A DNA stretch of 64,000 nt, taken from positions 1 through 64,000 of the forward strand of contig DASPRM010000075.1 of the NCBI GenBank assembly GCA_035624455.1. The letters run 5' to 3'. This document shows, in pieces, positions 305 through 8,828 of this stretch. This stretch comes from Terriglobales bacterium. GTDB lineage: Bacteria; Acidobacteriota; Terriglobia; Terriglobales; Acidobacteriaceae. A model generated the notes under the pieces. That model saw only the letters and a list, made by a program, of their open reading frames with translations. It had not been told where the DNA came from and did no database searches. The position numbers and the translations under genes are program-made. The stretch's first letter is position 1. Every line of letters starts with the position of its first letter.

Positions 305-610
305 CTACCACTTCAATAGATCGACTTCATCCACATTGATGGTTTCTTTATTGCGGAAAAAGGCGATCAGGATTCCCAGACCGACGGCAGCTTCCGCCGC
401 CGCATCAGTGATCACGAAGATCGAAAACACCTGACCTTGGAGGTTCCACAGTCTGGAAAACGCCACCAGGTTCAGGTTTACGGCATTCAGGATCAGCTCG
501 ATCGACATAAGGATGATCACCACATTGCGCCGCGTGACCACGCCAATAGTGCCTATGACAAACAATGCCGCAGCTACTACCAGATAATCGAGAGTCGTGA
601 TCGGTCCCAT
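305..610 (-). CDS. nuoK: NADH-quinone oxidoreductase subunit K
   Basis: NuoK is a small membrane subunit of complex I (homologue of mitochondrial ND4L) in the proton-translocating arm. The 101-residue product has the family length, three hydrophobic segments and the conserved pattern [15 protein letters not shown] around residues 37-51, which includes the membrane-embedded glutamate. The end [10 protein letters not shown] is also typical. It follows nuoJ on the same strand after a 61-bp gap. Confidence 0.96.
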
Positions 611-671
611 ATACCAGCTCTTGTTCTCTAGTTTCGAACTTCACACTTCCAACTTCAGACCTCGCACTTGC

Positions 672-1181
672 TCAGATCCGCTTCTTCGCCATTACTACCG
701 CACCCACGATGGCCACCAGCAGAAGCAGCGATGCAATTTCAAAAGGCAACAAATACGTCTGGTAGAGCGCCAGCCCAACCTGCTGCGTGTTGCTCTGTTC
801 CGGCAGCGAAATGGCGTTTTGCGGGAAGATGCTGCTCCCCTTCAAATAGACCACGGTGATGATTCCGCCCAGCACCAGGCTGGTCAAAATACCCAGCAGC
901 CATTGCTGATTGAATTGTTCTTCCTTTACGTTGCGGTCAATGTTCACCAACATGATCACAAACAAGAAGAGCACCATGATCCCGCCGGCATAGAGAATCA
1001 CCTGCACGCCGGCAACAAACGGGGCATAGAGCATCAAGTACAGCCCTGCGAGCGAGAGTAATGTGAAGATCAGCGCCAGCGCCGCGTGCACCGGGTTCCT
1101 GCGCGTGATCACCAAGATCGCGCTCACCATGGCGACTCCCGAGAGCAGATAGAAGAAGAACCTTGGAGCAATGGGATTCAT
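672..1181 (-). CDS. nuoJ: NADH-quinone oxidoreductase subunit J
   Basis: NuoJ (ND6 homologue) is a membrane subunit of complex I. The 169-residue product has five hydrophobic segments. It carries the family pattern ALIFTLLSLAGLYLMLYAPF and a GGIMVLFLFVIMLVN helix. Its ATG overlaps the nuoI stop (ATGA), indicating translational coupling. The 61-bp gap to nuoK contains short near-repeats of the form CTTCACACTTCCAACTTC, another low-complexity spacer. Confidence 0.96.
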   Translation of the reverse strand: MNPIAPRFFFYLLSGVAMVSAILVITRRNPVHAALALIFTLLSLAGLYLMLYAPFVAGVQVILYAGGIMVLFLFVIMLVNIDRNVKEEQFNQQWLLGILTSLVLGGIITVVYLKGSSIFPQNAISLPEQSNTQQVGLALYQTYLLPFEIASLLLLVAIVGAVVMAKKRI

Positions 1182-1651
1182 CGCGTATACACCGTCACTT
1201 CCAGACCGCGCTCCAGGCGCGTACGGTCAAGGATCAGGCCATCGCGGCTATACTGCGCCAACTCGAAGTCCTGCGAGAGTTCCAGGGCGTCAGTGGAGCA
1301 GGATTCCTGGCACAGCCCACAGAACATGCATCGGCTGATATCAAAGGTATACCGAGTCAGAACTTTGCGCTTGGTCGTTGCATCGCGTTCGCTCTCGACT
1401 GTGATCAGGTGCTCAGGACAAGCCTTGGCGCACAGATCACAGGCGATGCACAGCGTCTCCCCCGTATCCGGATTCACGTTCAGCCGCGGCAGGCCGCGAT
1501 AGCGCTCTGCAATCTGCGGGCGCTTTAGGGGATACTGCTCCGTATAGATTCGCTGCGGATGCTGATTGCGAAACGTCACCCCTAGACCCTGCAACAGGTC
1601 GAGGAGCAGGGCCTCGCGGACGAAGGTTGACAGCCCCTTTTTTCTGTTCAC
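1178..1651 (-). CDS. nuoI: NADH-quinone oxidoreductase subunit I
   Basis: NuoI carries two 4Fe-4S clusters that pass electrons through the peripheral arm of complex I. The 157-residue product has two ferredoxin motifs, CIACDLCAKACP (Cys68, 71, 74, 78) and CMFCGLCQESC (Cys108, 111, 114, 118). I chose the GTG at 1651, which overlaps the nuoH stop as GTGA. A longer reading frame starting at 1750 would add about 33 residues that only shadow the nuoH 3' end. Confidence 0.95.
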   Translation of the reverse strand: MNRKKGLSTFVREALLLDLLQGLGVTFRNQHPQRIYTEQYPLKRPQIAERYRGLPRLNVNPDTGETLCIACDLCAKACPEHLITVESERDATTKRKVLTRYTFDISRCMFCGLCQESCSTDALELSQDFELAQYSRDGLILDRTRLERGLEVTVYTR

Positions 1652-2958
1652 GAATGGCCTCCCGTGATCCAGGCCACAAGCTCCGGACCAACTCCGACCA
1701 GCGCTGTAACGATCAGTACTCCCAGGCCGACGGGCAAGAGCACTTTCCAACCCACTTTCATCAACTGGTCAAAGCGATAGCGCGGGAAGGTGCCGCGGTA
1801 CCAGATGTACAGGTACATAAAAACAGCCACCTTGAAGACGAACCAAAAGATGTCCTGAATTCGGTCGCGCACCCCAGGAACAAATAGCAGCAAGCCGATG
1901 AGCCCGAGAAGCGCGCCAAACGCCCCCAGTCCCATCGTCTGGATCCGCAACATGGGGTGCTTGGGCATGCGGGCGGCGTTGTAGAAGGCAGCCAGCGCCA
2001 GCAGCAGGAAGAAAAGCCCTGGAACCAGCGAAAACACAAAGTCCCATGTCGGCCCGCTTAGCCAGTAGGTGAAAGGCCGGAGCCAACCCCCAAGCCAGAG
2101 CGTCACCGCGATCGATGAGACCGCAATCATCGCCGCATATTCCGCCAAAAAGAATAATGACCAGCGAAACCCGCTGTACTCGGTGTGAAAACCCGCTACC
2201 AGTTCCGATTCGGCTTCCGGCAAATCAAAGGGAGCGCGATTGGTTTCCGCCACCATAGCGACAGCGAAAACGCCAAATGCGATCAGTCCCAGCGGGAAGA
2301 ACTTGAATACGAACCACGCATGCTGCGCTTTCTGCGCCTCCACGATGCCGATCATGCTCAGAGTTCCGACACCCGAACCGCTTCCCGCTGCATAAGGGCC
2401 TGTTCCTGTGAAGCTGGTCATCAGCACAGCCGAGACCACCGCGAGGCCCATGGCGATTTCATAGGAAACCATCTGCGCGCTCGAGCGCAGCGACCCCAAC
2501 AGCGGGTAATGGGAATTAGAGGCCCATCCCGCCATGATGATCCCCAGCACGCCCAGCGAGGAAGTGCCCAGCATGAACAGAATTCCAATGTTCATGTCGG
2601 TGACGGCATGGGTCGGCCCGAACGGTACCACCAGGTAGACGGTGAACGCCGCAACCACTACCGCCAGTGGAGCCATCCAGAAGACCAGCTTGTCGGCTTC
2701 GCTGGGCATGATGTCTTCTTTGATCAACAGCTTTACCGCGTCGGCAATTGGTTGCAGCAAGCCATGCGGACCTACACGCATGGGCCCGAGCCGTACCTGC
2801 ATATGCGCCAGGGCCTTGCGCTCGCCCCAATTCATCAGAATCACTGCCAGAGACACGCCCGCAAAGATGACCAGAATGTAGATAGTGGCCCAGATCAAAT
2901 TCCCGGCTTGGCCCGGCGTCGTGTTCTGATTGAGATATCCCGTAAGCTGATTCAGCAT
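1648..2958 (-). CDS. nuoH: NADH-quinone oxidoreductase subunit H
   Basis: NuoH (ND1 homologue) is the membrane subunit that forms the quinone site together with NuoB and NuoD. The 436-residue product is long for the family but within range. It has eight or more hydrophobic segments and the signatures WGERKALAHMQVRLGPMRVG near residue 45 and TNRAPFDLPEAESELVAGF in the centre. It begins one base inside the nuoD stop (TAATG) and overlaps nuoI by GTGA. Confidence 0.96.
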   Translation of the reverse strand: MLNQLTGYLNQNTTPGQAGNLIWATIYILVIFAGVSLAVILMNWGERKALAHMQVRLGPMRVGPHGLLQPIADAVKLLIKEDIMPSEADKLVFWMAPLAVVVAAFTVYLVVPFGPTHAVTDMNIGILFMLGTSSLGVLGIIMAGWASNSHYPLLGSLRSSAQMVSYEIAMGLAVVSAVLMTSFTGTGPYAAGSGSGVGTLSMIGIVEAQKAQHAWFVFKFFPLGLIAFGVFAVAMVAETNRAPFDLPEAESELVAGFHTEYSGFRWSLFFLAEYAAMIAVSSIAVTLWLGGWLRPFTYWLSGPTWDFVFSLVPGLFFLLLALAAFYNAARMPKHPMLRIQTMGLGAFGALLGLIGLLLFVPGVRDRIQDIFWFVFKVAVFMYLYIWYRGTFPRYRFDQLMKVGWKVLLPVGLGVLIVTALVGVGPELVAWITGGHS

Positions 2959-4109
2959 TAGCGGTCCACCTCACCCAGGACGATATCTATGGTGCCGATG
3001 ATGGCAACCACGTCTGCCACCAGCCGTCCCCGAACCATGGTGTCCAACGCCTGCAGGTTGACGAACGACGGTGGCCGCACGCGCACGCGATAGGGCTGTG
3101 TGGAACCGTCGCTGACGATGAAGTACCCCAGCTCGCCCTTGGGAGCTTCGATCGAGTGATAGATCTCACCTACCGGCGGCTTCAGCACTTTGGGGATTTT
3201 CGCCATAATGGGGCCTTCGGGAATCGCCCCGACCGCCTGGCGAATAATGCGCAACGATTGCCGCATTTCAGCGATGCGCACCAGGTATCGATCATAGGTA
3301 TCGCCGTTCTGACCAGTGGGGATGTCGAATTCAAAATTCTTGTAAGCCGCATAGGGCTGAGCTTTGCGCAGGTCCCATTTCACTCCGCTTCCGCGAAGTA
3401 CTGGACCGGTTACGCCCAAGGCTTTGCACTCATCGCCGCTGATGACTCCGACCCCCTTGGTCCGCTCTACCCATATGCGGTTATGGGTCAGCAGCTCTTC
3501 GTACTCGTCGATCTTAGGCGCAACAAAATCGCAAAACTTGATGACGTCCTTCTCAAAGCCGTCGTAGGTCTCGTACTGGCAGCCACCAATGCGGAAGGCG
3601 TGCGTTGTGAGCCGAGCGCCGCAATACTTTTCGAAGATCTTCAAGATCTCTTCACGGTCGCGGAAGCAATAGAAGACTGGAGTGATCGCACCGATATCAA
3701 GGGCATGGGTCCCTAGCCAGAGCTGATGACTCGCGACGCGATTCAGCTCGGTCAGAATAACGCGAATGTAGTTGGCACGGGGTGGGGCCTCGACATTAAG
3801 CAACTTCTCCACGGCTTCGCAATAGCCCAGCCCATTGGAGACCGCAGCCACATAATCCATGCGGTCCACGTAAGGATTGAACATCGCATAGGTGCGATTC
3901 TCCGCAATCTTCTCCACCCCCCGGTGCAGGTAGCCGATCACGCACTCGGTTCCTAGAATTTTCTCGCCATCCAGCTTCAGGATGACTCGCAGCACGCCGT
4001 GGGTCGATGGATGCTGCGGCCCCATATTGAGGGTCAGCTCAGTCGCATCCAGGAAAGTCTTGTCCTTCTCTTCCAGTTGCAGGTGCGACGCTGTCGACAA
4101 CTCTTTCAT
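2958..4109 (-). CDS. nuoD: NADH-quinone oxidoreductase subunit D
   Basis: NuoD is the 49-kDa-type subunit, related to [NiFe]-hydrogenase large subunits, and forms the quinone-binding pocket. The 383-residue product begins [18 protein letters not shown] and contains the expected GYLHRGVEK motif. It also has GNGDTYDRY-like and [17 protein letters not shown] stretches, and ends [13 protein letters not shown]. It is a separate gene, not fused to NuoC, and its ATG overlaps the nuoC stop (ATGA). Confidence 0.96.
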
Positions 4110-4786
4110 TGCCCGCTCTCAATCCCCAAGTTGATCTGAACCCATTCCTTGTCTTGCTGGATGATGCCGTAATCCTTGCGCAGCGGATGTCCCTTCCAAT
4201 CTTCGGGGAGCAGGATTCGCTTGCAATCAGGATGCCCTTCGAAGCGGACACCGAACATGTCATACACCTCACGCTCCAGCCAGTTAGCCGTGGGCCATAG
4301 TGGGACAACACTTGGTAATGCCGCTCCGTCGGCAATTTGCGTCTTTACTCGCATACGCTCGTTGCGCTCGAACGAGTAAAGGATGTAAATCACCTCGAAG
4401 GGAAGCTCACGTTGCGGATAGTGAACCGCGGTAACGTCCACGCAATAATCGAACTCTTCTTCGTCGCGCAGCACACTCAGGATTTCATAAACGATAGAAG
4501 CGTTCACCACCAGATAGTTCTGACCCAAATACGTACTGGCTTCGTGGATGCCGGAACCGTATTGTCGCTTGAAGCGGCTCACCAGTTCCGAATTCCAGGG
4601 TACGGGGACGGGGCCAGAGGGTTTGGGAGGAGGTGGAGCAGGCTTGGCGGTTGGAGTTCCTGCGCCCGCCGATGCGCCACCCGCGGGCGCCGCCGCAGGC
4701 TTGGCCGAAGAAGTTGTCTCCGCCGGCGTGGGCTTGGCCGGAGTCGGACTCTCAGGGGTGCTGTTTGGCTTAGTTTCGTCGGCCAT
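4106..4786 (-). CDS. nuoC: NADH-quinone oxidoreductase subunit C with Pro/Ala-rich N-terminus
   Basis: NuoC is the 30-kDa-type peripheral subunit. Residues from about 70 onward match the family, including [34 protein letters not shown] and [15 protein letters not shown]. The first about 65 residues are a low-complexity Pro/Ala/Thr/Gly stretch that is not part of the standard fold; it may be a flexible extension. nuoB would normally lie between nuoA and nuoC, but only 27 bp separate them here. Confidence 0.94.
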
Positions 4787-4813
4787 ATAGAAACGCGTTG
4801 CCCGCTCTTCCGC

Positions 4814-5170
4814 TTAAATCCATTCCAGAGCACCCTTCTTCCAGACCCAAATATAGCCAACGATCAGGATTGCCAGAAACACCAGTATCTCCACCAGGCC
4901 AAACAACCCTAGCGCCTTGAACTGCACCGCCCAGGGGAATAGAAAGATCGTCTCCACGTCGAAAACCACGAACAGGATGGCGACTATATAAAAGCGTACC
5001 GTGTAACGTCCGCGCGCATCACCGATCGGATCGACCCCGCATTCATAGGGCATCAGCTTGGTCTTTTCAGGATTGTCCGGTCTCACCAGCTTGGCTAGCC
5101 ACAGTGTCAAGGGGATCAGAATCGCGATGATGGCAATGAAAAGGAAGATCGGAACATAGTTCCCTGGCAT
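4814..5170 (-). CDS. nuoA: NADH-quinone oxidoreductase subunit A
   Basis: NuoA (ND3 homologue) is a three-helix membrane subunit of complex I. The 118-residue product carries the diagnostic loop YECGVDPIGDARGRYTVRFY followed by FVVFDVETIFLFPWAV. It is the first gene of the minus-strand nuo run. The 330-bp divergent gap to lysS should contain the operon promoter. Confidence 0.95.
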   Translation of the reverse strand: MPGNYVPIFLFIAIIAILIPLTLWLAKLVRPDNPEKTKLMPYECGVDPIGDARGRYTVRFYIVAILFVVFDVETIFLFPWAVQFKALGLFGLVEILVFLAILIVGYIWVWKKGALEWI

Positions 5171-7859: not shown

Positions 7860-8828
7860 CTAACTGAAAGTCGGCAACAAGACAATATCAGAGGCGGGAA
7901 CGGGCTCCACCGGGTATCCCGCCTTAGCCCAGGCGCGCAGGCCTCCTACGATCACGCGCGCGTCATAACCGCTCTCGCGCAGAAGATGCGCCACCCGGGC
8001 GCTGGTCGCCTCGCGCGCTCACGTGCAGTAAAGGAAAACAAGTTTTTCTTTAGGCACGTCCGCCGTAGCCGCCGTCAGATTATTCGGTTCAAGACGAATG
8101 GAATGGCGAATGCGTTGCGCCCCGGCATCGTAGTAGCCGTGGCTGCGGACATCGGCCACGATCACCGCGCCGGCATCTGACTGCAGCCTTTCCATTACTT
8201 CCTCGATTTGCACGCGTGGCACCACGCGATAGACGCGATGCTGCCAATACAGATAGAAGCGATACACCATATAGACCAGTATCGCGATTACCAACGCCGA
8301 AGCCAGCGTGTGACCCACCGTGGCAAGTCCACGCGCCAGCAGTTCGAAGAACTGACTGAACAGGTATCCGATGGAGACGTAGGCCGAAACATACAGCGCG
8401 CAGCCAATGAAATCCAGTCGCAGGAACTGGCCTAGGCTCATTTTCATACTGCCGGCCAGCGGGGGAGCCATCGTGTTAACGCCAGGGATGAACTTCGCGA
8501 TCATCAGAGTCACGCGCCCGCGCCGGTAGAAAGACTCGGCGGAGCGAAGAATGCAAGTCTCAGGATTGACCGCCAGCCGGCATAGAACTCCCAGCAGCAG
8601 CCATCCCATTTTGCGCCCAAGGAGAAAAAGGATGAGGTCCCCCAGCATGATGCAAAAGATTCCGACCAGCAGCACCCCCGGGAAGGTCATCCGGTGCAAG
8701 GCCGCGGCCGCGCCAGCGGTCACCAGCGCCAGCGCCGCTGGAATGGGAAGACCCAGGGCCTCCAGAAAGACCAGCAAGGCCAGTACAGCGTAACCGTGAC
8801 GGGTGATCAGTGAAGTCAGTTCATGCAT
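7860..8828 (-). CDS. DedA-family membrane protein fused to rhodanese domain; in-frame TGA, candidate selenocysteine
   Basis: Residues 1-200 are a DedA (SNARE-associated) membrane domain with the motif FIPGVNTMAPPLAG at about 113-126 and several helices. Residues 205 onward form a rhodanese domain (VIVADVRSHGYYDAG). The frame meets TGA at 8019-8021, right after FLYCT, then continues for 52 codons (AREATSARVAHLLRESGYD, VGGLRAWAKAGYP) to TAG at 7860. In DedA-rhodanese relatives the loop reads LYC[ST]C, so TGA replaces the second Cys, giving Cys268-Thr-Sec270. The product is 322 residues if read through and 269 if terminated, which would cut the rhodanese fold in half. A hairpin of SECIS-like geometry follows the TGA. 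Alternatives are a nonsense mutation or a sequencing error. Confidence 0.7.
7976..8017 (-). promoter_or_regulatory. SECIS-like hairpin just after the in-frame TGA
   Basis: On the minus strand, one base after the TGA, CGCGC (8017-8013) can pair with GCGCG (7980-7976). An inner perfect stem GCGCC (8002-7998) / GGCGC (7992-7988) closes a five-base loop CGGGT. The loop begins 22 nt after the TGA and has a G at its second position. Bacterial SECIS elements are known to be stem-loops directly downstream of the UGA, with a G early in the apical loop about 16-37 nt away. The geometry fits; no folding energy was computed, and GC-rich DNA forms hairpins easily. Confidence 0.45.

Follow-up and report, generated by a model that had tools for sequence, protein, structure and literature searches.

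Selenoproteins in which a rhodanese domain carries a CxU motif are a listed family (form 3, NF041203; PMC13188914), modelled as the single-domain protein 'rhodanese_LYCAU' (126 aa), which is of the YCxU rhodanese subtype, where Sec occupies the second position. Fusions of a DedA membrane domain with a Cys-containing rhodanese are also already known (PMC10127716, PMC12893004); PA1209 of P. aeruginosa has been described as DedA plus rhodanese (PMC12893004), and the role of the connection between the two domains has been called unclear (PMC10127716). The published selenoprotein list further holds TsoB (NF045694), a rhodanese/DsbD fusion-like protein (PMC13188914), and single-domain DedAs of COG0586, including E. 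coli YghB, are candidate flippases of undecaprenyl phosphate (UndP).

Here we describe a gene in the window, the whole analysed stretch of 64,000 nucleotides from an acidobacterial contig, whose product is in all likelihood a membrane-fused CxU rhodanese selenoprotein that works like other CxU selenoproteins, as judged from sequence comparison. It shares the YCxU rhodanese subtype with NF041203 but has an N-terminal DedA domain in addition. Its domain order is that of the DedA/thiosulfate sulfurtransferase GlpE fusions, and the Cys form from Xanthomonas (WP_043095768.1) has the motif YCACPNE and the same pair of DedA-domain cysteines, Cys83 and Cys92; these Cys fusions of Pseudomonadota differ in having Cys for Sec, no UGA and about 31% identity. 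The VTT domain aligns overall with single-domain DedAs, which in contrast possess neither a rhodanese nor the cysteine pair and whose re-entrant Arg-Arg is not kept in the fusion. TsoB, likewise a rhodanese fusion selenoprotein, has a different partner domain and a UxxxxU motif with two Sec; one of 36 fusion members matches NF045694, at 5.5e-6.

The selenium form of the DedA-rhodanese fusion appears to be undescribed. A literature search for DedA joined with selenocysteine or a selenoprotein, with most subscription papers outside its reach, returned nothing relevant. The earlier note had suspected a new selenoprotein form of this fusion; as far as we found this is so for the membrane-fused Sec form, whereas its rhodanese half is related to the known CxU selenoproteins of NF041203.

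A DedA-rhodanese reading frame with one in-frame TGA

The gene and its main parts are as follows.

7860..8828, minus strand: predicted DedA(VTT)-rhodanese selenoprotein gene; 322 residues with Sec270, TAG end, frame open except for one TGA; orthologues share the architecture and the TGA
8361..8741, minus strand: DedA/VTT membrane domain, residues 30-156; Pfam PF09335 at 8.9e-11, helical in the AlphaFold2 model
8019..8021, minus strand: TGA, codon 270, very probably read as selenocysteine; shared by every clade orthologue, with Cys, Ser or Arg at this position in relatives, and associated with selB
7923..8183, minus strand: rhodanese domain, residues 216-302, spanning the TGA; Pfam PF00581 at 1.7e-7, fold matches to solved rhodaneses

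The frame runs from 8828 to 7860, starts with MHELT and contains FLYCT-TGA-AREATSARVA. Re-reading of the sequence reproduced the coordinates, the motif and the hairpin positions given in the earlier note, as well as its statement that the frame continues the rhodanese for 52 codons beyond the TGA to a normal end: 52 sense codons lie between the TGA and the TAG, and the PF00581 match extends across the TGA. A PF09335 score of 42.8 bits (gathering cut-off 33.9) places the N-terminal part in the DedA/VTT superfamily, and the C-terminal part has the fold of the rhodanese superfamily with the active-site Cys after the central strand. Several lines of comparison make it very probable that codon 270 is decoded as Sec in a CxU placement and that the gene encodes a membrane selenoprotein.

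Conservation of the TGA codon

Among 61 related genomes, the window protein belongs to a clade of 17 members (49-64% identity to it), each of which is interrupted by a single in-frame stop, always TGA and always at this codon. In this clade YCT-TGA leads into (R/N)EATSAR or a close variant of it, so that the flanks are conserved on both sides of the UGA. Of the 16 orthologues with the same TGA, one (G058) belongs to a different family within the class. A diverged second fusion clade (about 30-36% identity) carries YCT-TGA-PNEATSAR or YCTC-PSEAT, and alignment of homologues, a check proposed at the outset, thus places either TGA or Cys in this column. Differences at the three codon positions amount to 0.26/0.19/0.58 after the TGA versus 0.30/0.16/0.55 before it, the excess at third positions being the pattern of coding DNA.

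These data bear on the reading in which the TGA is a genuine stop, arisen by nonsense mutation or sequencing error, and the rest of the rhodanese is a decaying remnant. The portion upstream of the TGA is by itself an ORF of 269 codons, and the evidence in the window itself comes down to one assembled base triplet. However, the presence of the same TGA in many independent genomes excludes a sequencing error or a private nonsense mutation. With 17 orthologues from different genera sharing the codon and having no other in-frame stop, with coding-type substitution continuing after it, and with Sec machinery and a SECIS present, we leave a genuine stop almost no chance.

Those relatives' contigs that bear names are acidobacterial MAGs, including Candidatus Sulfotelmatobacter and Acidobacteriales, and one scan of genome contigs returned full fusions only from Acidobacteriota. 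This apparently undescribed membrane selenoprotein architecture occurs in many families of a major soil phylum. Genes of this kind are prone to annotation as truncated DedA proteins, so that estimates of the selenium requirement of these bacteria come out too low. The genome of the window also holds a TGA-containing paralogue of the second clade (G000:C6:5706-6629, L052) with the same SECIS and 34% identity to the window protein.

A SECIS hairpin downstream of the TGA

The sequence following the TGA can form a small hairpin.

7988..8002, minus strand: SECIS hairpin, 5-bp stem 8002-7998/7992-7988 with apical loop 7997-7993 (CGGGT); assigned from the consensus fold, a synonymous null and the published bSECIS rules

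According to these rules, a bacterial SECIS has a loop of 3-9 nt, a stem of 4-16 bp, a G among the first two loop nucleotides, a distance of 16-37 nt from the UGA and an MFE of <= -7.5 kcal/mol (PMC13188914). The window hairpin agrees with this model in every respect, with a 5-nt loop, 5 bp, G as the second loop nucleotide, a spacing of 21 nt (the loop begins at nt 22 after the TGA) and -9.1 kcal/mol when the hairpin is folded alone. The bacterial SECIS geometry claimed for it earlier therefore stands, and is joined by conservation among Sec genes and decay in Cys homologues. Against it, the longer 34- and 48-nt GC-rich contexts of the window fold better otherwise than as the SECIS hairpin. 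Moreover, when the window gene is recoded at random with synonymous codons, 8% of the recodings form the full 5-bp stem, and for this reason the hairpin in this gene alone is weak evidence.

RNAalifold of 32 Sec sequences gave as consensus exactly the hairpin with stem 8002-7998/7992-7988. Covariation within the stem is small, with one compensatory change (G-C to A-U in L017), and cannot carry the case by itself; we therefore turned to a synonymous-codon null and to the contrast between Sec and Cys genes. The complete stem is present in 41 of 50 Sec genes and the other nine retain three or four of its pairs, whereas 6.6% is expected when the same peptides are recoded with random synonymous codons (over the 50 genes a mean of about 3 full stems, with no more than 10 in any of 1000 trials). 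A G occupies the second loop position in all 50 Sec genes, and the C-G closing pair is found in 50/50 Sec versus 10/42 Cys genes. The hairpin has decayed in most Cys homologues, although this contrast follows in part from Arg-to-Lys changes in the Cys forms.

Selenocysteine machinery and the Sec-to-Cys series

The assembly from which the window derives (97.7% complete) contains selA (C122, 558 bits), selB (C103, 351 bits), selD (C95, 360 bits) and a tRNA-Sec with anticodon tca (UCA) at C60:2961-3055 (66 bits). A search of the genome, suggested in the earlier note, thus recovered the components SelA, SelB, SelD and tRNA-Sec in full. The selD gene itself (G000:C95:34543-35478, L048) has one in-frame TGA and probably encodes a selenoprotein.

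Among genomes at least 90% complete, counted by hand, selB scores above the cut-off in 44/46 of those with a Sec fusion versus 3/42 of those with only non-Sec fusions (Fisher p about 6e-19, uncorrected for relatedness). The two genomes with a Sec-form fusion yet no selB at the cut-off are G028 (96% complete) and G112 (99%), where the gene may either fall in an assembly gap or have been lost recently. Conversely, G019, G100 and G125 have selB and only Cys-form fusions were found in them, which indicates that loss of Sec at the site can precede loss of the machinery.

It might be argued that an altered code or general read-through inserts Trp or some other standard residue at the UGA, since a frame that stays open when TGA encodes a residue does not name that residue. 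This is highly improbable. Cys homologues exist at the Sec column and none of the 73 aligned proteins has Trp there; the genome has tRNA-Sec(tca) and SelB, and the occurrence of the UGA form follows that of selB; synonymous sites of the SECIS are under constraint; and UGA serves as the ordinary terminator of the same gene in close relatives, for example L102 and L106.

In a tree of 73 fusion proteins, loci picked by us and hence no census of the Sec fraction, residue 270 is Sec in 50, Cys in 19, Ser in 3 and Arg in 1, and five changes suffice to explain this distribution (residue-270 column masked, midpoint root, several deep branches weak). Cys clades, including the window-protein orthologues L115-L118 (YCSC), are nested inside Sec groups. 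From this nesting, Sec rather than Cys is probably the older state in Acidobacteriota and was replaced by Cys with loss of the machinery. This provides a naturally occurring series in which Sec gives way to Cys (and Ser/Arg) in step with selB loss, and through which the reason for keeping Sec becomes testable.

The rhodanese centre

Sec270 lies two residues downstream of a cysteine that is kept in every fusion aligned.

8025..8027, minus strand: Cys268 codon, canonical rhodanese active-site Cys and first residue of CxU; invariant in 73/73

Cys268 aligns with the active-site Cys of the solved rhodaneses 6mxv and 3tp9, and the AlphaFold2 model places it after strand 263-267. Relative to either structure the active-site loop has two extra residues, so the assignment of Cys268 rests on alignment and invariance. 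A structural search gave rhodanese matches with VIA Z up to 15.8 (E. coli GlpE, 1gmx, Z 14.2); among the matches listed there were only rhodaneses and none for the DedA part, which does not show that fold to be new. Given the invariance of Cys268 and its match to the active-site Cys of the PDB structures, and given that position 270 varies, Sec270 is predicted to be the CxU partner of Cys268 and not the canonical rhodanese nucleophile. The Cys268-Thr-Sec270 centre originally proposed is thus upheld in its Sec decoding and CxU placement, and refined in the part that Sec plays.

The C268-T-U270 sequence is the CxU motif of NF041203, and the rhodanese domain of the window protein scores 84.3 bits over nearly the whole of that model. 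The curated cut-off is 115, so the domain is homologous to the family but not a member of it. The best of the 36 members of the fusion set A1 reaches an E value of 3.2e-28, weaker than the standalone L060 (108.9 bits, 1.3e-31). L060 is one of four standalone acidobacterial CTU rhodaneses (with L057, L059 and L061) that have the same SECIS-type hairpin and score 85-112 bits, under the NF041203 cut-off; another standalone CTU rhodanese, L108, passes it with 178 bits.

As in other rhodaneses, Cys268 would take up sulfane sulfur as a persulfide, or an oxidised substrate. Sec270 could then attack to form a Cys-Sec selenenylsulfide, acting as the resolving or reducing partner. We regard the chances of this chemistry at Cys268/Sec270 as evenly balanced.

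The fusion paralogues L119, L148, L149 and L150 have YCSS, YCAS or YCNR instead of YCxU or YCxC and come from genomes without selB; three have no Cys92. They are apparently non-redox derivatives.

The DedA domain and its cysteine pair

Three sites in the membrane domain bear on its possible function.

8580..8582, minus strand: Cys83, one of the conserved DedA-domain Cys pair; 72/73 fusions
8553..8555, minus strand: Cys92, second of the pair; 70/73 fusions
8475..8495, minus strand: tip of the second re-entrant helix, KFIPGVN (Lys112...Asn118); E. coli YghB has Arg...Arg there

Each of the 69 fusions that have Sec or Cys at 270 contains both Cys83 and Cys92. The three fusions without Cys92 are three of the four with Ser or Arg at 270, and since those four form a single clade, this coincidence represents at most a few events. 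The pair also occurs in the proteobacterial CxC fusions L176-L178, and it is absent by alignment from two single-domain DedAs of the same genome (L171, L172) and from E. coli YghB. Positive residues around the pair suggest that it lies on the cytoplasmic side.

Co-conservation of Cys83/Cys92 with CxU/CxC raises the possibility, which we put forward tentatively and from sequence patterns, of an intramolecular thiol redox relay between the two domains; in the AlphaFold2 model (pTM 0.60) domain packing is not reliable. Electrons may move to or from Cys83/Cys92 and so couple the thiol/sulfane-sulfur redox state to the membrane domain. The co-conserved pair offers a concrete hypothesis for the function of rhodanese-fused DedAs. 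Extended to the whole protein, it would describe a selenium-dependent, redox-coupled membrane transporter, in which the Cys-Sec pair senses the sulfane-sulfur/thiol state and the Cys83/Cys92 relay controls the DedA domain or drives chemistry at it, as an ancestral trait of Acidobacteriota that outlived the selenium machinery through Sec-to-Cys replacement; this larger picture is speculative, although conceivable.

A selenoprotein without any relay is a possibility of limited weight: Sec270 might serve in metal or metalloid binding or in defence against peroxides or electrophiles, with DedA as an anchor only. A 2026 review names metal binding as a possible role of Sec in several transporter-associated selenoproteins (PMC13188914), relatives have single-domain CxU rhodaneses without DedA, and the ChrE (chromate-linked) rhodanese model matches weakly. 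Retention of the DedA-domain Cys pair together with CxU/CxC across two phyla, and its absence from the single-domain DedAs examined, argue against this reading.

The DedA part might also be an ordinary UndP flippase that the rhodanese gates as a redox sensor. COG0586 DedAs are putative UndP flippases and rhodanese fusions occur in that subfamily (PMC10127716); in addition, UptA models match weakly and 7 relatives have a same-strand polyprenyl synthase gene immediately upstream. A role in phosphate binding is assumed for Arg130 and Arg136 in the second re-entrant helix of YghB (PMC10127716). Instead of these two basic residues, essential in YghB, the window protein has Lys112 and Asn118; position 112 is Lys in 71/73 and Arg in 2/73 fusions, and position 118 is basic in 0/73. 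With one Arg replaced by Lys and the other never basic, UndP is not assured as the substrate. All DedA models, moreover, score far below their own cut-offs, and the polyprenyl synthase does not adjoin the window gene. A gated flippase is on this evidence unlikely.

Gene surroundings

In 7-9 same-family relatives (L157, L161-L166), the genes follow the one-strand order metG-larC-tatD-yajQ-polyprenyl synthase-[DedA-rhodanese]-CYTH, where polyprenyl synthase and CYTH were assigned by Pfam and the others are, from reading the sequences, what we take to be metG, larC, tatD and yajQ. This order puts a DedA gene beside one for prenyl-lipid synthesis. The neighbours of the window gene are ankyrin, lysS and DUF711 genes; the order conserved in the relatives is absent here, which makes the neighbourhood a weak functional clue. 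Near the start of the window (305-5170, minus strand), ORFs resemble an ordinary nuo (complex I) cluster.
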